The notes under the pieces were generated by a model. That model saw only the letters and a list, made by a program, of their open reading frames with translations. It did no database searches and was not told where the DNA came from. From the NCBI RefSeq assembly GCF_000316645.1, contig NC_019684.1, positions 5,244,001 to 5,308,000 on the forward strand: 64,000 bases of DNA, given 5' to 3'. Positions within the stretch are counted from its first letter, which is position 1. Every line of letters begins with the position of its first letter. Below are positions 44,574-61,976 of this stretch, piece by piece. Source of the stretch: Nostoc sp. PCC 7524. Its GTDB lineage: Bacteria; Cyanobacteriota; Cyanobacteriia; Cyanobacteriales; Nostocaceae. Position numbers and translations under genes: made by a program.

Positions 44574-47500
44574 TTATGCAATCACAGTAATGCTGCTCCT
44601 GGTGAGTGCGGCTTGATTCGATAAGAAACCTATCTGAACTTGGGCTGTACTGCCGATGCCATCTTCATCAAAGAACAGTTGACCTGTAGTCTTATCGTAG
44701 ATAAAGCGATCGCTCGCTGTGACAGCACTACTACCAAGGCGGAATAGACCAGGATCAAGTTTACCCAAGGCTTGAATCAGTCCAAATTCTAGCTTGGAGA
44801 TCAAGATCAAATCTTGCCCAACTTTAAAGTCAGTAATAGTATCAAACTCTCCAGTACGAGTATCACTCAGATAGAAGCGATCGCGTCCATTACCACCAGT
44901 TAATAAGTCATATCCCTGACCACCAACTAACAGATCATCGCCATTACCACCGATTAAAGTATCATTGCCGTCACCACCATACAGGGTATCATTACCGTTA
45001 CCACTATACAGGATGTCATTACCGTTACCACCATATAGGGTGTCATTACCGTTACCACTTAGTAAGGTATCGTTGCCATTGTCACCGTAGAGAGTATCTT
45101 TACCTTGACCGCCAACCAGCAGATCATTATCATCACCACCATATAGGGTGTCATGACCATTACCACCTAGTAAGGTATCATTGCCACCCAGACCCCAGAT
45201 TAAATCATTCCTGTTAGTACCAATCAGGATATTGTTACCGGGAGTACCAATAATGCCGCCAGTGGGTTTGATAGTCACGCTTACAGATGCTGTTGCTGTG
45301 CCACCCTTACCATCACTGATAGCATAAGTGAAACTGTCACTACCAACGTATCCACTATTCGGAGTGTAGGTAATCAAGTCATCATTAAAGTCGGTCGGTG
45401 TACCATTGTCATTGATCAGGGCAACACCATTAACAGGAGTAGATACCAAACTCAGTTGCAGAGGATCACCATTGAAATCACTGTCATTAGCTAGGACATT
45501 AATGTTGATGCTAGTGTTTTGATTAGTAATGGCTGTATCATTTCCGGCTACAGGTGCAGTGTTCAAGTTCAGCCCCACAACTACTGGGTCATGGTCTGAA
45601 GAACGGAAAGCATCGGGATGATATAAGTTGTTGATCTGTGCTGCTGACTTGAAGTTGGTGTTGTAGTCTAGAACATTGGGTTCATCAGCATTAATATGCC
45701 ACTTGGCTGCACCTGTTACCTGTGCTGCTAAAGAACCATTAGCTAAAGCATGGTCTAAAGAACCCCACTGACCATTGAAAACATAGGAGTAGGAACTATT
45801 TGGAACAAGGTTGGTATATCCTACATTTTCCAACACCTTGATCGGATCTTCCTGAGCGTAGGCGTTAATGTCGCCCATAATCAAGTAATCGGTGTCAGTA
45901 GTCCCAGTGGGATTTGTCGCTAACCATGCTGCCAAATCTTCAGATGCACGAGTCCGTGTCCCATTGGATAAACCTTGCCCATCGCCAGCATCAGCATCAC
46001 CTATACCCCCAGAACTTGAACCCTTGGATTTGAAGTGATTGATGACAGCTGTGAATTGTTCACCAGTCGAGTTTTGTAGGAAGGTTTGGGCTAGGGGTTT
46101 ACGATTATTGTTATCAAAAGCACCTTGACCAAAGCCATCAGGGACTGTGGCGGCTGCACCAACGGGGGTAACACTATTAGGTTTATAGATGAAACCAACA
46201 GCGATCGCATCCGTACCTAGTCTAGGCAGTCCTGGATCAATAAAAGCATAAGTACCAGCACCTGCAACCGCATTTAGTCCGTTGACTAAATCTTGAATTG
46301 CACTGGTAGCACCATAACCATCATTTTCAATTTCAATCAGACCAACAACATCAGCATTTAATCCCAAAATCGCCGCAATTGTTTTATCGCGCTGACGATT
46401 GAACTCAGTCAGGTTTTCTGCTCCCCGTTGTTCAGGACTGGTAAAACCACCACCAATTCCATCACCGTTGAAGTAATTAAGAACATTAAAGCTAGCAACC
46501 TTGAGCGTACCACCTACATCTGGTGTGGTTTCTGGACGAGGATTGGCTGGTGTAAAGTTTACACCCGTTGAGGTTTGAACGCGATACCCTTCAAAACGTT
46601 GGTCTAAAACGCCAGTGATACTAACAACGGTATCACCACCCCGCAGGGTATTAGTAGCACTAAGCGGTTCACCACCACGACCAAAGATAATGGTTGCCGG
46701 GTTTTGGACATTGCTACCGTCATCTAAGATAATCCGCCGCTTGGCAATTTCTTCTAAATAAGCAGCATAGCCAGCAACGCTGGGGTCATTAAATTGGGTA
46801 TACTGTTCCAACCTGGCATCTGTGCCGGGTTGGTTACTAGCACCAGTGGCCGAGAGTACAACCTGACCAAAGCGACCAAGTTGAAAATGTTCGGTGACGG
46901 TTAAATCTCCACTAGCCGCACTGATATTTACTAGCATCCCTTCATAGCTTTCCCAGTCTACAACGCTAGCTACTGGTAACTGGATGGTAGTAACAGTAGG
47001 TAGAACATCTGCACCCAAGTTAATCACACTGCTAACTTGAGATAGTTGGGTGAGGCTGCTAGTATTACCACCACTGGTAAATTCGCTCACAGTACCAGTC
47101 ACTCGGACTTTATCACCAACATTCCCAGAAAAGCGTCCTGTGGGGTCGAAAACAAAGATACCTTCGGAAGTTGTGGAGTTATCATCGGCATCAGCATCTT
47201 CTTCTTGAACAAAGAAACCACTCAACCCAGTACCACCGGGGAAAGCTGCAACTACAATACCCTCAATTGTGCGAATCCCACCAAAGGCCGAATTAAAGGC
47301 GGAACCACTGCCTTGAATTTGGTGAATTTTAGTAATGGTGAGGGCAACATCATTGTCAGTAATGGTGGCAGTGACTGAGCCAATGTTAATTCCGTTGTAG
47401 TTGGTATCATTACTAACTACACTGTGGTTGATAATACTGGTGTGTGTACCTTCTACTAAGGCATCATCTACTGCTGTCACTGTCACCGTTTGTGCTGTAT

Positions 47501-48362
47501 TCCAGTTATCAGGGGTGAAAGTGAGGGCAGTAATGCTAGTTGTGGTTTGAGAATCGGGGGTGATTGTCACTATGACATCTGCTGTAGGCTGAGTATTCAG
47601 CACAATGGTGTAGGTATCTGTTGCCCCATCTTCGGTGACGTTGGTACTACCACCAGACTCAACTAAGGTGACACCAGGTAAGGCGGCGGTGGCAACCTGT
47701 AAGTGATCGATTCCTAAGCCATGATCAGCACCAGCATTGTCTACATCACTCCAGCGCAACCAAATTTCTTCACCAGGTGCGAGGGAGAACCCAGTCATAG
47801 TCCCGGAGAGACTAACACGGTTGCTGCTGTCATTACCATTCACAGCGCCTGCTGTGCTGGTAGCAACGGGGCCAATGAAGTCTAGGGAATCAACATCAAT
47901 CCAAGTTCCAGTGTTGATGCTAGTAGCCCCAATTTGGTAAGCAAAGTCGAGTTTGTGTTGTGTTGTATTGCCACCGTTGCGCCATTGTTCACCAACATAG
48001 CTAATGGATAGAGATGTCACGGTAGTGCCAGTATCATTAAAGAACCGCGCACCATAGAAAATCGTTCCAGTACCACCAGAAGCCACTGATCCTAAAGCTC
48101 TATCTGAGTTACCAGATGCACCAAAACTGTACAGACTACCAGTGTTACTAGAACCCGTACCGGCATTAATTGTAGTTCGGCTGGTGTACCAACCCGTCAA
48201 AGTTTGGTTATCTGTCCAAGCTGTGTTACTGGTGCTGAGGCTATCGAAGTCTTGGAAGTAAGGCGTACTCAGAGAAATTACCCCTGTTGGTAGAGTGAAG
48301 ACTGTTTCTAGTCCGTTGGTGGCGATCGCAATATCCTCAGATTTCAGAATTATAGCTGTCAT
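44574..48362 (-). CDS. Secreted ExeM/NucH-type nuclease with RTX repeats
   Basis: A 1262-residue extracellular protein from the ATG at 48362 (MTAIILKSEDIAIATNGLET); no Sec signal, as expected for type I secretion. Domains in order: an adhesion-like N-terminal region (about 20-210), a Calx-beta-like or fibronectin-like module (about 225-345), an ExeM-type OB region (about 350-600) and an endonuclease/exonuclease/phosphatase domain (about 625-935; VASFNVLNYFNGDG, VGLIEIENDG, FRSSDHDPVVVG). Then come one cadherin-like module (VLANDSDFNGDPLQL) and about ten RTX nonapeptides (GGNGNDTLY type, about 1055-1165) with a C-terminal secretion region. It probably degrades extracellular DNA for phosphate or in biofilm. 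No type I secretion genes are nearby. Confidence 0.93.
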   Translation of the reverse strand: MTAIILKSEDIAIATNGLETVFTLPTGVISLSTPYFQDFDSLSTSNTAWTDNQTLTGWYTSRTTINAGTGSSNTGSLYSFGASGNSDRALGSVASGGTGTIFYGARFFNDTGTTVTSLSISYVGEQWRNGGNTTQHKLDFAYQIGATSINTGTWIDVDSLDFIGPVATSTAGAVNGNDSSNRVSLSGTMTGFSLAPGEEIWLRWSDVDNAGADHGLGIDHLQVATAALPGVTLVESGGSTNVTEDGATDTYTIVLNTQPTADVIVTITPDSQTTTSITALTFTPDNWNTAQTVTVTAVDDALVEGTHTSIINHSVVSNDTNYNGINIGSVTATITDNDVALTITKIHQIQGSGSAFNSAFGGIRTIEGIVVAAFPGGTGLSGFFVQEEDADADDNSTTSEGIFVFDPTGRFSGNVGDKVRVTGTVSEFTSGGNTSSLTQLSQVSSVINLGADVLPTVTTIQLPVASVVDWESYEGMLVNISAASGDLTVTEHFQLGRFGQVVLSATGASNQPGTDARLEQYTQFNDPSVAGYAAYLEEIAKRRIILDDGSNVQNPATIIFGRGGEPLSATNTLRGGDTVVSITGVLDQRFEGYRVQTSTGVNFTPANPRPETTPDVGGTLKVASFNVLNYFNGDGIGGGFTSPEQRGAENLTEFNRQRDKTIAAILGLNADVVGLIEIENDGYGATSAIQDLVNGLNAVAGAGTYAFIDPGLPRLGTDAIAVGFIYKPNSVTPVGAAATVPDGFGQGAFDNNNRKPLAQTFLQNSTGEQFTAVINHFKSKGSSSGGIGDADAGDGQGLSNGTRTRASEDLAAWLATNPTGTTDTDYLIMGDINAYAQEDPIKVLENVGYTNLVPNSSYSYVFNGQWGSLDHALANGSLAAQVTGAAKWHINADEPNVLDYNTNFKSAAQINNLYHPDAFRSSDHDPVVVGLNLNTAPVAGNDTAITNQNTSININVLANDSDFNGDPLQLSLVSTPVNGVALINDNGTPTDFNDDLITYTPNSGYVGSDSFTYAISDGKGGTATASVSVTIKPTGGIIGTPGNNILIGTNRNDLIWGLGGNDTLLGGNGHDTLYGGDDNDLLVGGQGKDTLYGDNGNDTLLSGNGNDTLYGGNGNDILYSGNGNDTLYGGDGNDTLIGGNGDDLLVGGQGYDLLTGGNGRDRFYLSDTRTGEFDTITDFKVGQDLILISKLEFGLIQALGKLDPGLFRLGSSAVTASDRFIYDKTTGQLFFDEDGIGSTAQVQIGFLSNQAALTRSSITVIA

Positions 48363-48873
48363 GATTATTAATATGTAAGCAAAATGGTAAAAAATCTGAA
48401 AAAGCAACACAAAGCATTAGCCTATGCTTGAATAGGTCGTACTGGCTTTTTATGTTTTTGTTAGCTACAAAAAATCAACGCACAGTAATTTTATTCCTGT
48501 AAATAGGCGATAAAAATCTACTGATTTAAGGTTAAGAAAATACTAGGAAAAGGTAAAATTACTAATTATTTATAAATAATATTTTCAGATAAAAATTCAG
48601 GCGTTGCTGAATAGAAGGATAAAAATCAAAAATTCAAGCTCTCAAACTCTTATTCTCCACACCTCTGCGTGAAGCAAAAATCACCTCACCAATCAGCAAC
48701 GCCCAAATTCATATAGGAATCCGGTTTGATTACTGTTCGTCTAACGTGGCGTAGCCAAATGATTTGCGTAGGTAGGCAATAGGCACTCTTGCAATAGGAA
48801 AGAAGGGGGGTAGGGGTATACTGAGTTTTTATGCGCTAGCGCAGGCTACGCCAACAAAAATCAAATATGATTC
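48363..48873. other. Gene-free interval with dispersed repeats
   Basis: The promoter of the nuclease gene lies at the left. Positions 48711-48833 hold a ~120-bp repeat whose inverted copy is at 56175-56290, followed by a GCGCTAGCGCAGGC palindrome near 48833-48850. No gene seen. Confidence 0.65.
48711..48833 (+). repeat. ~120 bp dispersed repeat, copy A
   Basis: From ATATAGGAATCCGGTTTGAT through CGTGGCGTAGCCAAATGATT to GGGGGGTAGGGG and GAGTTTTTATG. Copy B at 56175-56290 is inverted and nearly identical; copy A has ~10 extra bases (ACTCTTGCA) in the TAGGCAA run. Confidence 0.9.
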
Positions 48874-52571: not shown

Positions 52572-55500
52572 CTACCCAGGTAAAGGTAAGCCAGTGACGG
52601 CTACTATACCAGCGATCGCACTGGCTACAAGGGAAGACAACGCTGTACCAAATAGCCACCAAGCCGCACTAGCAACGGTGCTTCTGGTTTCTTCGGCTTG
52701 CTTTCTCACTTGTGCTTGCATTGCTTGGATGCGTTTTTGGGTTTCTTGTTGGATGCGTTCGGCGCGTTGCAATACGCTATCCCGTGTGGCTTCGATTTGG
52801 TTGATAATCCGGTTAGCGTCTTCTTGGGAAATATCTTCGCGAGAACTCAAGATGGCAACTAGGGTATCACGGTCAAATTGGCTGAGGCGATCGCGCAGGG
52901 CTGCAAATCCCACTTGCGGATCATCAAACAATTTTGCAAAGTCTTGTCTAATGCCTTCATAGCTGAGTTCTGGACGTTCTAGGGAATCTAGATAGTTGCG
53001 AATCCTAGCAAAAATTTGATCAATCGCTGACTGGAATCTTTGCTGAACTTGTTGAATTTGCTGGGCAATCGAGTTACGTACTGACTCGATTTGTTCCACA
53101 ATGCGGTTAGCTTCCTCTTCTGAGATATCTTCTCGTTGGGACAATAACGCCACCATCGTTGAACGGTCGAATTTTGAAAGGCGATCGCCTAAATTCTCTA
53201 CTCCCAAACGAGGGTCTTGTAAGAGTAGTCTTAAATCCCGTTTGATACCTTCAGGGTTAAGTTCTTGTTTGTTGGTGTGACGCAGATAGTTTTCCAGACT
53301 AGCTGCAAAATCTCCCACTCTTTGAGTAGTCCGGTTTGCCAAGCGACGTGGCGCTCTGATAATATTCCCAATTGCCTCTTGTACCTGGTCAATTGTCCGA
53401 TTAATTTGCTCTTTACTCAAATTTCTCTGTTGGCTGAGGAGTTCCACCAAGGTTTCGCGATCTACTTGCGCTAATCTATCGCGTAACGCTTCCACACCCT
53501 CCTGTGGTTGAGTTAGTAAGGTTTCTAAATCCCGTCTAATACCTTCGGGGTTGAGTTCCTCCAAGTTGGTACTACGGAGATAGTCGCCAATGGCTGTGAT
53601 GGTGCGATTGTACTGTTCTTGTACTGCTTGTGGTGCTTGTAAAACACTATTCCTGACATATTCCAACTGATCAATAATGCGATTGATTTGCTCCTCACTC
53701 AAATCTTGACGCTGACTGAGTAATTGCACAAATGTATCACGGTCAAACTGCGATAAACGCGATCGCAGTAGTCTAACTCCCAATTCCGGTTCTTCTAGCA
53801 AGGCGCGAAAATCCCGTCTGATACCTTCAGGATTTAACTCATCTTTATTGGTATTGCGGAGATAATTTTCTACTCTTTGCCAAAGTTGATTAACTCTAGC
53901 TGTAGCTTGTTCTTGTCTCTCTCTGGCTTGATTGGAGAAATCATCACAGATACCTTCGAGTTGACTAACAATATCACTCGCTTCCTCTTGGCTAAAATCT
54001 TGCCGTTGCAAGAGTATCTGTACAAAAGCTTCCCGATCAAATCCCTGCAATAGCGTGCTGAAATCAGCGAATTCACCGTCTAATTCTGCTAATAAATTGG
54101 CAAAATCTTGCTGAATTGTCTCTGGTTTCAGTTGTTCTTTACCAGTTGCACGCAGATAATTTTCAATACGCAGACGGATTGTTTGACCTTTTTCCACTTT
54201 TTCCGATTGGCGCACAGTTTCTAGAACTTCATGGCGGATGCTATCCATCTGTTGAGCAATTTCTGTCACCCTTAATTCACTGAGATCACCTCGTTGTGTC
54301 AGCCAGTTGCTAAAGTCTTCTTGTTGGAGTTGTTCTAGTTGCTGACGGACATTTGTCGGATCTGCTTGGGGATCATAGATGACTTCTGGGAATTCATCTC
54401 TAATGGTGATGCGATTGAAATGCCAAGGAAAAGAATTCAAGATATAGTCTTTGATGTCTGATTTGATGGTGTGTTCCCTAAACGGAGTCAATCTTGCAGC
54501 GATTTGCTCAGTAGTTTGCTCTCTGAGGTGTTGTATTTCGTGGGTAATTTTCTCGACATCGATATCTTGAACTTTGGTTTTTAACTGTTGAAGTTGATTA
54601 GTAATTCTATCCACATCGATATCAGACAGATCCACCCGATCTAAAACAGCCGGAATAGCAGCAGTTACACCATACTGCACAGCTTGCTTCAACACTCCAT
54701 TTCTACCATTACCGTTTCTTCTGACGGTGGTGACTACTTGCTGTAATCGTTCACCCAAATTTTCCGATTTTAATTCTTCGGGAGTGGCAGATTGCAGTAA
54801 ATTGATCACTTGTTCTGTGGGATTTTGACGAGCAAAAGTTTGTTGCCACGCTGCGTTTAATTGGTCAGCAATTTGGTTGATATCCGCCTTTGATAAATTG
54901 GTGCGGTCACTAATTAAATCCACAAAAGTTTGACGATTAATATTTTTGAGTAAGTCGCCGTCAGCTAAGGAGCGCCAATCTACATCACCCAGGATTTTAT
55001 CAAACTGATTGCGAATTTCTGCTAAATCTGGTTTTGGCACTGGTAGAGATGCCAAAGAATTCTTCAGAGTTTCAGTAATACTTTCAGCATCCAAACCAGC
55101 AGTTAATTCTCGTCGGACTGCGGCTGTAATTTCTTCCGTTGTAGAAACTGCTTGTCGTTGTGCAGCACCAGCACCAATGGCTGTAGTGGCTGTTCCCATC
55201 AGCGACTGTAAACCAGAATTGATAGTGCTGATGATAGAACCGAGTAAAGAACCAACTGCGGCAGAACCCAACCATGCTACCAATAAGAAATAGGTAGACC
55301 AAATGACAACGCCAACAATAGCTCCTAGTAGCGCACTTTGAATGAAGCTCAGTTTAACTGCTAAAAAGCAAGCAGTAAATAAGGCAATACTGGCGGTGAT
55401 GATTCCCCAAGCCCCAACTTTAGCCTCAACTTGGCGAATTTTACTGCCAACACTTTCTGATTCTCCGCCATCATCTATATCAGTACCTAAAGTTGAGATT

Positions 55501-55703
55501 CTGGCGGCAACTGAAAGGTTGGTTAATAATAATTGAAAAGCAACCGCCATTAAAGTACCAGCTAACAAAGCTACTAGAAACTGAGAACCAGAAAAACCCA
55601 ACAATGGTTCTACTGGCACAATAATATCTGGCAATCTTGTTGTAGGTGCGACACCAAAAGATAGCCAAGGCTGTATCAAAATACTTTCCAAACTTTGAAA
55701 CAT
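52572..55703 (-). CDS. Large membrane protein with seven tandem ~85-residue repeats, unknown
   Basis: A 1043-residue protein from the ATG at 55703. The N-terminus has TM helices (about residues 33-60, 88-135 and 138-165), and a glycine-rich segment precedes the soluble region. Residues about 200-985 comprise seven divergent units of 80-100 residues. The consensus is YLR.T...ELNPEGIRRD, then DRLSQFDRDT.V.LLSQR and DLSEEQ.NRI..Q.E, joined by coiled-coil linkers. The first two units (LKNSLASLP and VKSDIKDYILN) are most diverged. The last ~30 residues are a C-terminal TM helix (WWLFGTALSSLVASAIAGIV). I do not recognise the repeat by name. Both ends in the membrane with a long helical array between suggests a tether or scaffold. 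Confidence 0.8.
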   Translation of the reverse strand: MFQSLESILIQPWLSFGVAPTTRLPDIIVPVEPLLGFSGSQFLVALLAGTLMAVAFQLLLTNLSVAARISTLGTDIDDGGESESVGSKIRQVEAKVGAWGIITASIALFTACFLAVKLSFIQSALLGAIVGVVIWSTYFLLVAWLGSAAVGSLLGSIISTINSGLQSLMGTATTAIGAGAAQRQAVSTTEEITAAVRRELTAGLDAESITETLKNSLASLPVPKPDLAEIRNQFDKILGDVDWRSLADGDLLKNINRQTFVDLISDRTNLSKADINQIADQLNAAWQQTFARQNPTEQVINLLQSATPEELKSENLGERLQQVVTTVRRNGNGRNGVLKQAVQYGVTAAIPAVLDRVDLSDIDVDRITNQLQQLKTKVQDIDVEKITHEIQHLREQTTEQIAARLTPFREHTIKSDIKDYILNSFPWHFNRITIRDEFPEVIYDPQADPTNVRQQLEQLQQEDFSNWLTQRGDLSELRVTEIAQQMDSIRHEVLETVRQSEKVEKGQTIRLRIENYLRATGKEQLKPETIQQDFANLLAELDGEFADFSTLLQGFDREAFVQILLQRQDFSQEEASDIVSQLEGICDDFSNQARERQEQATARVNQLWQRVENYLRNTNKDELNPEGIRRDFRALLEEPELGVRLLRSRLSQFDRDTFVQLLSQRQDLSEEQINRIIDQLEYVRNSVLQAPQAVQEQYNRTITAIGDYLRSTNLEELNPEGIRRDLETLLTQPQEGVEALRDRLAQVDRETLVELLSQQRNLSKEQINRTIDQVQEAIGNIIRAPRRLANRTTQRVGDFAASLENYLRHTNKQELNPEGIKRDLRLLLQDPRLGVENLGDRLSKFDRSTMVALLSQREDISEEEANRIVEQIESVRNSIAQQIQQVQQRFQSAIDQIFARIRNYLDSLERPELSYEGIRQDFAKLFDDPQVGFAALRDRLSQFDRDTLVAILSSREDISQEDANRIINQIEATRDSVLQRAERIQQETQKRIQAMQAQVRKQAEETRSTVASAAWWLFGTALSSLVASAIAGIVAVTGLPLPG

Positions 55704-56442: not shown

Positions 56443-57123
56443 ATGGTTGTAGGTATACATAGACGTGCTGTAGGTGTGTTCTCTAATCGTCGGGATGCTG
56501 AACAGGCGCTACATGAATTGAAACATTCCGGCTTTCCTATGGATCGAGTCTCGGCGATCGCACAAAATGTAGATCGGGATGATGATCTTGCTGGCACTCC
56601 TGTACAGGAGGAAGTAGGTAATAAAGCTGATGAAGGTGCAGCAGCCGGAGTAGTTTCGGGTGGAGTTTTAGGTGGTTTAGGTGGCTTGTTAGTAGGACTT
56701 GGCACTCTAGCAATTCCTGGCATTGGCCCCATCATGCTAGCAGGAGCAACAGCAACAACTCTGGCCACTACCCTAGCTGGAGCAAGTATTGGTGCTGTTG
56801 CTGGTGGCTTTTTAGGCGCACTGATTGGTTTGGGTATCCCCGAAGAACGAGCCAGAGTATACGAAGATCGGGTGCGAAGAGGACACTATTTAGTAATTAT
56901 CGATGGCACAGATGCAGAAATTGCTCAGGCAGAGGCAATTTTACATCGTCGCGGTATTGAAGAATTCGCCGTCTTTGATGCCACTGATGTAGATAGAGAA
57001 CACCAGCGCCAAGGGGTAGAACGACTCAAACAGGAAGATATTATTCGCACGGAAACCCCAGTTAAAGGCAATGGGCATGATCCTGCGGTAGTGATTATTG
57101 ATCACCGGAAAGAACGTATTTAA
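56443..57123 (+). CDS. General-stress-protein-17M-like, glycine-zipper membrane protein
   Basis: A 226-residue protein. Residues 5-60 form a GSP17M-type alpha/beta domain (VGVFSNRRDAEQALHELKHS, then GFPMDRVSAIAQ). Residues about 68-130 are a glycine-zipper hydrophobic region (GVVSGGVLGGLGGLLVGLGT; GASIGAVAGGFLGALIGLGI) and residues 131-190 repeat the alpha/beta pattern (EERARVYEDRVRRGHYLVII). The tail is acidic/basic. GGAG lies ~12 nt before the ATG. Proteins of this type are induced by salt or osmotic stress in bacteria. It is followed by the CAAD gene after 122 nt, same strand. Confidence 0.85.
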   Translation: MVVGIHRRAVGVFSNRRDAEQALHELKHSGFPMDRVSAIAQNVDRDDDLAGTPVQEEVGNKADEGAAAGVVSGGVLGGLGGLLVGLGTLAIPGIGPIMLAGATATTLATTLAGASIGAVAGGFLGALIGLGIPEERARVYEDRVRRGHYLVIIDGTDAEIAQAEAILHRRGIEEFAVFDATDVDREHQRQGVERLKQEDIIRTETPVKGNGHDPAVVIIDHRKERI

Positions 57124-57245: not shown

Positions 57246-57677
57246 ATGGAAACCGAACAAAAGCAAGCGGAATCCTTAAATGCCAATTTACCACAAGGTA
57301 CAATAGCACTACCCAAGGCAGAAAATGGTAACTTACCCAAGCTACCACCAGCAAATGACACTAATACTCAATGGCAACAAGTTGCTAAACAAGTATCTGA
57401 TTTCTTGGCGCAACTACCAGAATATGTAGGTAGTTTTTATCAGAAATATAACCGTCCCATTGTCACAGTTTTATTAATCCTATCAGTCCTAGTAACGCTG
57501 AGGGTATTACTGGCTTTATTAGATGCAATCAACGATCTCCCTTTATTAGAGCCAATTTTTGAAGTGATTGGACTTAGTTACTCAACTTGGTTTATTTTCC
57601 GTTATCTCATCAAATCTTCAACTCGCAAAGAATTAGTGACAGAAATTAACTCACTGAAAAGCCAATTCTTTGGTTAA
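57246..57677 (+). CDS. CAAD/CURT1-domain membrane protein
   Basis: A 143-residue protein. The N-terminal ~60 residues are polar. The CAAD domain (about 55-143) has two TM helices (IVTVLLILSVLVTLRVLLAL and LLEPIFEVIGLSYSTWFIFR) and a C-terminal amphipathic helix (SSTRKELVTEINSLKSQFFG). CAAD occurs fused to some cyanobacterial aminoacyl-tRNA synthetases and alone in CurT, the thylakoid curvature protein homologous to plant CURT1. This stand-alone form is therefore CurT-like. A terminator at 57851 follows. Confidence 0.9.
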   Translation: METEQKQAESLNANLPQGTIALPKAENGNLPKLPPANDTNTQWQQVAKQVSDFLAQLPEYVGSFYQKYNRPIVTVLLILSVLVTLRVLLALLDAINDLPLLEPIFEVIGLSYSTWFIFRYLIKSSTRKELVTEINSLKSQFFG

Positions 57678-58042: not shown

Positions 58043-58447
58043 ATGACTAATGAAAAACATCAAGGCATAGACTCACATGAACGCGTAGAAGTAGATACAT
58101 ACGATAGAGGTATTATCCCTGCTGAAACTGCTGCCCGTCATGAAAGAGAGGGAGAATTATATAAAACACTCCCTACAGAAGAAAGAGAAGCAGATGCACC
58201 GACAGATGATCAAACAAAAACCCAAAGTATTCGCACTACAGACGGCTATACAGTAGACAAAGAAGGTTTATTAAATAACTACGCAGTTGAACCAGAAATG
58301 TACTACGACGTTCCTGGTGATGCCACAGCCGCAGCAGAACAAGACACTTCAACACGAGTTGAAGAATTAAGCGAAGTAAATGAAGATAAAGCAGGTGAAT
58401 TAACAGAAGAAAGAGATGTCAGAGGTAGGGGACCAGGTTTAATCTAG
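58043..58447 (+). CDS. Acidic hydrophilic protein, unknown (stress-protein-like)
   Basis: A 134-residue, highly charged, Glu/Asp/Thr-rich protein without membrane segments (HERVEVDTYDRGIIPAETAA; ending RDVRGRGPGLI). Low-complexity and probably disordered, similar in style to the protein at 19940. The start is supported by GAGGAC 10 nt upstream. It lies after the stress-like and CAAD genes but has its own leader of ~150 nt after a terminator. No named domain. Confidence 0.7.
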   Translation: MTNEKHQGIDSHERVEVDTYDRGIIPAETAARHEREGELYKTLPTEEREADAPTDDQTKTQSIRTTDGYTVDKEGLLNNYAVEPEMYYDVPGDATAAAEQDTSTRVEELSEVNEDKAGELTEERDVRGRGPGLI

Positions 58448-59529: not shown

Positions 59530-60705
59530 ATGCAACCTCGGCAAAGCATTATTGAAATGTTTTCAACTTTTGTGCAGTTTGATGCCGATCGCTTCAGTCG
59601 GTGGGCGACGGAATCACGCTTGCGTCGCAGCATTCAAAGTTGTCTGAACCATACCCCCAAGGAAACTTCGGAAGGTTTTTGGACTTTGTATTGGTATAAG
59701 TTTTGGCAACTTCCCGAAACCAAAGCCTTAGCCAAGCAGCATCTCACCGCTTATTTGCAAGAACCTTGTTATTGGACATCCCAAAAAACAGCCGCTAGTT
59801 TGATTAGTACGCAGTACAAGCTCTCAGACTGCTTTCAAGTGGCGATCGCCCAAGTTGATCGAGTCCTCAAAGGGTTTAATCCCAGTCATAGCAGTAGCCT
59901 GAAAGGTTACGCCAGTATTCTTTTTGGTAGTGCTATCCGCGAAACCCTACGCCAACGCCAGGAAGTAGATATCTGCACTGATTGGGGTTTGTTACGCAAA
60001 ATTAGCCAGAAGCGTTTGGATGAATCTTTGCAAAATGCTGGTTTATCCGCAGCCGAAACTCAGGCATACATCCAGGCATGGAATTGCTTCAAAACCCTGT
60101 ATGTGCCAACCAAAGCGGCTAATTCGCGGCAATTGTCTCCCCCAGATGCTGACACCTGGGAGGCGATCGCTAAAGCTTACAACTCCCCAAGCACCCCATC
60201 AGCCAACCCCCAAACCTTAGAAAAGTGGCTATTGAATGCTGCTAAAGCTGTACGCAAGTATCTTTATCCCAACCCAGATTCTCTAAATATTTCTCAGGGT
60301 GGGGATGATTCATTTGAGATGTTAGATAATCTCCCTGGCACAGAACAGCCATCTTTAATTCAAGAAATCATTGCCCAGGAGGAAGAACAAGCCAGAAATA
60401 TCCAAAAAAGAGAAATTAATCAAATATTAGTTAAGGCAATTTCTCAACTCGATTCTCAATTACAACAGATTTTACTTTTATACTACAACCAAAAGCTGAA
60501 TCAGGATGCCATTGCTCAACAATTAGACACAAAGCAATACACTGTTTCTCGAAGACTGGGTAAAGCTAAGGAGATTTTATTGCGATCTTTAGCAAGCTGG
60601 AGTCAAGATACACTGCATATTTCCCTCACTCCAGACATACTCAAGGGTATGGGTACACTAATAGAAGACTGGCTACAGAATTACTACAATGTCTCCCACC
60701 CCTAA
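59530..60705 (+). CDS. RNA polymerase sigma factor, cyanobacterial group 3 type
   Basis: A 391-residue protein. The N-terminal third (RWATESRLRRSIQSCLNHTP) and a central region-2-like part (SSSLKGYASILFGSAIRETL; DWGLLRKISQKRLDESLQNA) lead to a clear C-terminal sigma-4-type HTH (INQILVKAISQLDSQLQQIL; QDAIAQQLDTKQYTVSRRLG KAKEILL). This matches the atypical sigma-70-like proteins of cyanobacteria, annotated among group 3 sigma factors. A DUF1822 gene follows 95 nt downstream, a pairing that appears repeatedly in cyanobacteria. Which named sigma (SigF, G, I or J) cannot be decided by eye. Confidence 0.8.
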   Translation: MQPRQSIIEMFSTFVQFDADRFSRWATESRLRRSIQSCLNHTPKETSEGFWTLYWYKFWQLPETKALAKQHLTAYLQEPCYWTSQKTAASLISTQYKLSDCFQVAIAQVDRVLKGFNPSHSSSLKGYASILFGSAIRETLRQRQEVDICTDWGLLRKISQKRLDESLQNAGLSAAETQAYIQAWNCFKTLYVPTKAANSRQLSPPDADTWEAIAKAYNSPSTPSANPQTLEKWLLNAAKAVRKYLYPNPDSLNISQGGDDSFEMLDNLPGTEQPSLIQEIIAQEEEQARNIQKREINQILVKAISQLDSQLQQILLLYYNQKLNQDAIAQQLDTKQYTVSRRLGKAKEILLRSLASWSQDTLHISLTPDILKGMGTLIEDWLQNYYNVSHP

Positions 60706-60800: not shown

Positions 60801-61976
60801 ATGACTGCTAACCCTACCGTCTTCACATTTGCTGACTCAACAGACTTGATTTTAGAAATCCCTGATCATCCCCAAAATCAAATCAATCTTCCTAGTGAGT
60901 CTTTTTCTCATCCTAGTATAGGGTATCAAGCTTATTTAAACGAAATTTGCTTGAGTGCAGTCTTGCCGTGGTTACAAGAAGATTTTACACGCCAAGCAAA
61001 GGTTTGGCCTAATACCAATTCTCTAGCCAGCATTTGGGAACTGGTAAATGGAACTGCCATCACCCTAGACGTAACCAAATTTATCCTAGTTCCCAGTGAG
61101 ACTATTGATTTAAGTGAATTGCGTGTACCCCAAGAATGGGTAGATTTACCAAATTGGGTGGGAGATTATTATTTGGCGGTACAAGTAGATCCAGATGCAG
61201 GCTATGTTAAGGTTTGGGGTTACTGTACCCATGCACAATTAAAGAATCAAGGTCAATATGATCCAGGCGATCGCACTTATACTTTAGATGCGAGTGCTAT
61301 CACGACTGACATGAGTGTGTTACCTGTGGAATTACAATTCTGTATGCAGATAGCCACACGTAGCCAGCTAGCAGCGTTACCCACCATATCCCAAACCCAA
61401 GCACAAAACTTAATTACCCGTTTAGGTAATCCCGAAGTCATCACCCCCAGGCTAGCCATCCCGTTTGAATTGTGGGGGGGACTGGTAGAACATGGTGGCT
61501 GGCGCAAAAGCCTCTATGAACGCCGCTTAGGCTTACCAGAACAGCGTTCAGTGGTGCAATGGCTACAAAGTGGTGTTTCCCAAGGGGCTGAGGCTATAGG
61601 TTGGGGTAAGTTGAATTTACAATTAAGTGCAGCTGGAGCTAAGAGTGCAGAAGGAGTGCAGCCAGGAGTAACATTATCCCGTAGATTAGCGATCGCTGGA
61701 CAAACCTACGAACTTTTAATTACTCCCCAAGGCGAAACAGATACATCCTATTGGCGGTTTGAGTTACGGAATACCAGCGTAGGTGCATCGATTCCCGGCG
61801 GTTTTAAACTCCGACTCCTCACCGAAGACTTACAACCGTTCCCCAACAATGAAGACGTAGCCACAACAGCCGTAGAACAACTCTACGTTGAAGTTGCCCT
61901 AGATGCTGGTGAAGGTATAGTTTGGGAAATAGAACCACTACCGGAAAATTATGACCAAGAAATTTTACGATTCTAA
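60801..61976 (+). CDS. DUF1822 protein
   Basis: A 391-residue protein matching DUF1822, a cyanobacterium-restricted family. Typical elements are an ordered N-terminus (YQAYLNEICLSAVLPWLQE), WVDLPNWVGDYYLAVQVDPD, VKVWGYCTHAQLK and a C-terminal beta-rich portion (RLAIAGQTYELLITPQGETD). The protein is soluble. Its position directly after the sigma factor suggests that the two work together, for example as a regulator and target, but this is inference. The first ATG fits the family and is preceded by CCCGGAG. Confidence 0.88.
   Translation: MTANPTVFTFADSTDLILEIPDHPQNQINLPSESFSHPSIGYQAYLNEICLSAVLPWLQEDFTRQAKVWPNTNSLASIWELVNGTAITLDVTKFILVPSETIDLSELRVPQEWVDLPNWVGDYYLAVQVDPDAGYVKVWGYCTHAQLKNQGQYDPGDRTYTLDASAITTDMSVLPVELQFCMQIATRSQLAALPTISQTQAQNLITRLGNPEVITPRLAIPFELWGGLVEHGGWRKSLYERRLGLPEQRSVVQWLQSGVSQGAEAIGWGKLNLQLSAAGAKSAEGVQPGVTLSRRLAIAGQTYELLITPQGETDTSYWRFELRNTSVGASIPGGFKLRLLTEDLQPFPNNEDVATTAVEQLYVEVALDAGEGIVWEIEPLPENYDQEILRF

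Follow-up and report, generated by a model that had tools for sequence, protein, structure and literature searches.

The window, i.e. the whole stretch of 64,000 nucleotides from Nostoc sp. PCC 7524 that was analyzed in this work, encodes a protein of 1043 amino acids in which an array of helical repeats is flanked on either side by hydrophobic segments. This protein belongs to a real, conserved and so far uncharacterized protein family. The gene for this protein is linked with a gene for a CAAD (CurT-type) protein, a linkage that is reported here for the first time. Because genes for membrane-bending and stress proteins are located nearby, it is put forward that the repeat protein may help to arrange photosynthetic membranes under stress. 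Tentatively, we favor a stress-related membrane organizer that most likely tethers or spaces two membranes facing the cytosol, together with a putative CurT-type partner.

An array of helical repeats between hydrophobic ends

Reading frame, self-comparison, profile search and hydropathy agree on what an earlier note, made from the letters of the window, had described as a seven-fold repeat in a 1043-residue protein with membrane segments at both ends; one degenerate unit has to be added (Table 1). An in-frame GTG codon 39 bases 5' of the start offers an alternative product of 1056 amino acids, and several relatives start near the same residue as the 1043-residue version. A second copy of the protein, 1036 amino acids long and 48% identical, is encoded in the same genome.

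When the protein is compared with itself, the top diagonal of 45 residues scores 162, as against a maximum of 45 for shuffled sequences (n=20, residues 181-1010). A unit profile seeded with the four C-terminal units (residues 604-990) retrieves eight copies of about 97 residues each from the window protein, seven of them clear (28-157 bits) and one degenerate, and with this seed the first four matches alone count as independent finds. Across 121 relatives, seven units are detected at E≤1e-3 in 103 proteins, eight in 16 and six in two, so that the count of seven given in the earlier note fits the family well. The lengths of the three relatives examined in this respect (949, 1236 and 1239 amino acids) lie near steps of one or two units.

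The description of each unit as two short helical hairpins and a long helix is in broad agreement with predicted secondary structure, and the structure models obtained are all-helical; these models are, however, of low to moderate confidence (mean pLDDT 54.9 and 65.5), and the halves of the unit are without detectable homology. An internal duplication of the unit is not supported: comparison of one half with the other yields a score of 8.5, with a mean of 8.6 and a maximum of 13.8 for 30 column shuffles. The prolines P691 and P785 reside in linker helices, which suggests that these positions serve as hinges.

Table 1. Features of the repeat protein gene and its divergent neighbors in the window
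Feature	Position in window	Strand	Evidence
Gene for the double-anchored repeat protein, 1043 aa	52572..55703	-	Frame and relatives
N-terminal hydrophobic segment 1, residues 33-69	55497..55607	-	Hydropathy; model helix 41-71 (pLDDT <50)
N-terminal hydrophobic stretch, residues 94-161, taken as segments 2 and 3	55221..55424	-	Hydropathy; model helices 85-119 and 124-149 (pLDDT <50)
Repeat unit 1, residues 206-301	54801..55088	-	32.3 bits
HU-like helical hairpin within unit 1, residues 256-293	54825..54938	-	PF00216, 29 bits (cut-off 22.4), profile positions 2-39 of 90
Repeat unit 2 (degenerate), residues 293-398	54510..54827	-	4.8 bits, weak
Repeat unit 3, residues 411-508	54180..54473	-	28.1 bits
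Repeat unit 4, residues 506-602	53898..54188	-	64.1 bits
Repeat unit 5, residues 604-700	53604..53894	-	143-157 bits (units 5-8), profile seed; P691 invariant in 35 aligned proteins
Repeat unit 6, residues 698-794	53322..53612	-	143-157 bits (units 5-8), profile seed; P785 invariant in 35 aligned proteins
Repeat unit 7, residues 796-892	53028..53318	-	143-157 bits (units 5-8), profile seed
Repeat unit 8, residues 894-990	52734..53024	-	143-157 bits (units 5-8), profile seed
C-terminal hydrophobic segment, residues 1013-1043, basic stretch just before	52575..52667	-	Hydropathy and charge counts
YflT-domain stress protein, divergent neighbor	56443..57123	+	PF11181, 36.1 bits (cut-off 26.2)
Stand-alone CAAD (CurT-type) protein, 143 aa, divergent neighbor	57246..57677	+	PF14159, 109.6 bits (cut-off 30.7)
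Small conserved neighbor with Psb34/ssl1498-like motif	58043..58447	+	NF033486, 30.9 bits (below cut-off 45); no Pfam match

Predicted topology

Averaged over 35 proteins, the number of lysine plus arginine residues amounts to 1.0 at the N-terminal end, 3.3 in the first loop and 0.0 between segments 2 and 3, followed by 3.1 in the 60 residues past segment 3, 6.7 ahead of the C-terminal segment and 0.2 in the tail. Read with the positive-inside rule, this distribution would place the repeats in the cytosol and suggests that the N-terminus and the tail are located on the outer side. The first loop is net acidic in the same 35 proteins, with a mean of 5.7 aspartate plus glutamate residues versus 3.3 lysine plus arginine residues. 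As thylakoid and plasma membrane turn their cytosolic sides toward each other, the repeat protein could bridge both membranes or lie along one of them.

A protein family of cyanobacteria

The author of the earlier note could think of no family for this protein, and databases bear this out. No Pfam or NCBIfam model spans the protein (the window protein was scanned with both and 35 members with Pfam), sequence and profile searches of the PDB returned no significant match (two weak ones, best E 0.26, and ten weak ones, best E 0.051), and comparison of the models with known folds gave nothing convincing. In the samples of class and phylum, the unit was found in Cyanobacteriia, with one borderline match outside. 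Within this class, a search with the whole protein yielded matches in 124 of 291 genomes, the smallest of which has 3.1 Mb, and a profile of two units matched in 118 of 282 sampled genomes. At phylum level, the widest reached by the profile search, 43 of 292 genomes match, a single one of them (G408) outside the class and with a borderline E value of 6.6e-4. In a genome of 3.3 Mb the best match to the family resides in a frame of 303 amino acids (G157:C1:178138-178812), perhaps a decaying copy.

Among 7994 scored candidates, 2733 related proteins were found. Many of the best 120, from which names were taken, are labeled 'MFS transporter', and the rest are 'hypothetical' or bear various names. 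No publication on the repeat protein was found among the titles and opening lines of abstracts in a literature search with limited coverage of subscription journals, and no data on its location, phenotype or interactions were found. Passages of PMC12462475 and PMC9950537 contain nothing on the protein, and the apolipoprotein of PMC8875764 refers to photosystem I chlorophyll proteins.

Gene neighborhood

Conservation of the neighborhood was assessed by BLAST in 80 named loci, which hold the top ranks among 536 relatives and which, judging from their titles, we take to be mostly Nostocales. A CAAD gene is present in 54 of these loci, a YflT gene in 48 and a relative of the small gene at 58043-58447 in 38, while each of the other nine window neighbors tried occurs in at most 18. 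The CAAD gene, where present, is located upstream of the repeat gene and is transcribed divergently; the 26 loci without a CAAD match include some that are incomplete. The counts for YflT and CAAD are taken from BLAST because clustering of neighbors lumped YflT and PRC/DUF2382 proteins together in a single cluster of 59 loci and failed to detect the CAAD gene of one locus (L113). By the same clustering, a gene for a BON-domain lipoprotein is found within 5 kb of the repeat gene in 47 of 121 loci.

A second arrangement became apparent in 40 distant loci, chosen among the matches listed in genomes of other orders. Four of them contain CAAD or YflT: in L113, L114 and L123 the repeat gene is followed immediately by a CAAD gene in the same orientation, and in L128 YflT and BON genes are located downstream. 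A relative of the small gene is present in a fifth locus (L150), and CAAD, YflT and the small gene are all absent from the remaining 35. YflT and BON genes recur with both arrangements of CAAD. The locus of the paralog in the window's own genome (L031) shows none of these neighbors. Close relatives that share the linkage do not count as independent evidence; more telling is that the same partners recur in a second arrangement, which is seen in few loci.

In a tree of the repeat family (122 rows, quick method), the four distant loci with CAAD or YflT fall within one group of 9, which adjoins the group of 81 that contains the upstream-CAAD cases, and the deeper groups are without a CAAD neighbor. 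CAAD itself is present in 123 of 145 genomes, and the genome of the window contains three CAAD-bearing genes, one of the widespread kind, the window's own and one in a frame of 1023 amino acids. A CAAD tree of 88 rows, in which 30 of the best-scoring other CAADs served as the comparison set, unites the 55 upstream neighbors (window included) in one clade beside Nostocaceae CAADs and separates the three downstream CAADs from them with starred support, long branches being involved. Two independent recruitments of CAAD are not demanded by these data, as a single grouping of all 58 is not rejected (p-AU 0.338).

Several further genes were noted. Upstream of the repeat gene in L123, manganese catalase and PRC-barrel/DUF2382 proteins are encoded. 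Genes for a 173-aa protein (e.g. L092, L108, L121, L122, L123, L128) and for a 146-aa lipoprotein-like protein (e.g. L100, L121, L122, L123, L128) recur in 11 loci each, on the same strand upstream in 10 of the 11 in either case, and one representative of each has no Pfam match over cut-off. At 44574-48410 (-), the window encodes a likely secreted protein of 1278 amino acids that combines RTX calcium-binding repeats with bacterial Ig/cadherin-like domains. A functionally unassigned DUF1822 protein (405.5 bits) is encoded at 60801-61976 (+), directly after a gene at 59530-60705 with a sigma-70 region 4 match over cut-off. A scan of the window with Rfam at gathering scores gave no match.

Discussion

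Little is understood of how cyanobacteria space their thylakoids from one another and from the plasma membrane, and structural candidates for this task are few. A common, conserved and often mislabeled family that is linked with a CurT-type gene in two arrangements provides a concrete candidate for thylakoid spacing. We infer a mode of action in which the repeat array, about 785 residues in length (206-990), would reside in the cytosol, held by three hydrophobic segments at the N-terminal and one at the C-terminal end. Under membrane stress, the protein would tether or space thylakoid and plasma membrane, or two thylakoids, across the cytosol, with the membrane-curving CurT-type (CAAD) protein and the stress proteins encoded nearby as putative partners, and it would do so mainly in cyanobacteria with larger genomes.

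This reading is supported by the units and hydrophobic ends, the charge pattern, the CAAD linkage and the recurrence of YflT and BON in both arrangements. Counted against it are the sparse occurrence of CAAD in distant loci, the 26 named loci without a CAAD match, the paralog that shows none of these neighbors, the acidic first loop and the weak models. The idea of the earlier note that the protein could bridge or space membranes is partly supported: charge pattern and CurT-type linkage fit, but both ends may share one and the same membrane.

CAAD is homologous to CurT/CURT1 and directs ValRS to thylakoids in Anabaena (PMC4893482). A connection to stress is suggested by an alkane-overproducing strain of N. 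punctiforme, in which Npun_F3786, described as a histidine kinase homolog with four membrane helices, is up 2.5-fold, the BON protein Npun_F3787 4.4-fold and the high light inducible Npun_F3789 8.1-fold; according to the same paper, butachlor likewise raises the levels of F3786 and F3789 relatives in three strains of Anabaena (PMC7660261). By number and description, Npun_F3786-F3789 would correspond to YflT, BON, CAAD (F3788) and the small gene as they are found in N. punctiforme NIES-2108 (L055), with a mismatch in order, as F3786 is placed 'downstream' of F3787 in that paper and the YflT gene comes first in L055. Npun_F3788 and genes of the type Npun_R378x go unmentioned in the main text of PMC7660261, so that no induction of the repeat gene or of the CAAD gene is reported there. 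These data suggest that the neighbors of the repeat gene act in membrane stress and contain nothing direct on the repeat gene itself. A more elaborate version of the proposal, in which a stress-responsive spacer sets the cytosolic gap (thylakoid-plasma membrane or thylakoid-thylakoid), the gap is tuned by the number of units and a second CurT is dedicated to it, appears unlikely to us.

While a tether or spacer is favored, a scaffold along one membrane follows closely in probability. In that case, a single membrane would hold both ends, and the repeats would coat its cytosolic face as a spectrin-like or lipid-binding layer, making it stiffer during osmotic or hydrophobic stress. The charge-based topology fits such an arrangement equally well, the neighbors are stress proteins, and the suggested hinges at the two invariant prolines agree with it. 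Furthermore, at E≤0.01 the profile of apolipoprotein A1/A4/E (PF01442) finds a match in 27 of 35 members; its score in the window protein (33.1 bits) is, however, far below the cut-off of 90, and long amphipathic helices may well score without kinship. The averaged hydrophobic moment of the linker helices, at about 96 degrees, is that of ordinary helices or coiled coils and singles out no lipid-binding class.

It is improbable that the protein serves as a membrane anchor for DNA or a protein partner via its HU-like hairpins. Of all models, PF00216 alone exceeds its curated cut-off in the window protein; at E≤0.01 it is found in all but one of 35 aligned members (best 3.4e-13), and a solved HU ranks tenth of the ten weak matches of the two-unit profile (E 0.7). 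On the other hand, the match in the window protein comprises the N-terminal hairpin only, 38 of 90 positions, and leaves the DNA-binding beta arm of HU unmatched. Similarity to the HU of the same genome is not significant: the unit profile yields scores of 11.1 and 10.7 in the right register where 60 shuffles each reach 14.1, and the alignment of two units gives E 0.37 in a different register. A partial match of this kind, as read from the profiles, does not make the repeat protein an HU.

AncM is an integral membrane protein, and the genome of Synechococcus elongatus 7942 comprises about 2.7 Mb. A relationship of the repeat protein to AncM (anchor of convergence membranes) from Synechocystis, judged by published descriptions, is even harder to credit. 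AncM is required for attachment of thylakoids to the plasma membrane (PMC10708155), its level is down by 36% without CurT, yet also by 37% upon CurT overexpression (PMC13353191), and the repeat gene has a CurT-type gene as a linked neighbor; however, an AncM homolog occurs in S. elongatus 7942 (PMC10708155), whereas no genome below 3.1 Mb is found among the 124 of 291 sampled genomes with a match to the repeat protein.

A function as MFS transporter, the source-given name of many of the best 120 relatives, can practically be dismissed, since an MFS domain is absent from the matches of the window protein (E≤1) and from the 25 families listed, of 37 that matched, for 35 members, and the protein has about four hydrophobic segments, not twelve, so that the name is a mislabel worth correcting.

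In comparison with known systems, the repeat protein resembles HU (PF00216, Bac_DNA_binding) in the pattern of the N-terminal helical hairpin but is without a matched DNA-binding arm. With apolipoproteins A1/A4/E it shares long amphipathic helices, as indicated by a weak profile match, but it is membrane-anchored at both ends and its score is sub-threshold. The likeness to AncM from Synechocystis 6803, drawn from published descriptions, consists in ties with both CurT and the attachment of thylakoids to the plasma membrane, while the distribution of the two proteins seems different. CurT/CURT1 proteins (CAAD), finally, are gene neighbors in two arrangements and presumed thylakoid-shaping partners of the repeat protein, which itself does not contain a CAAD domain; the CAAD protein encoded next to it is short (143 aa in the window).
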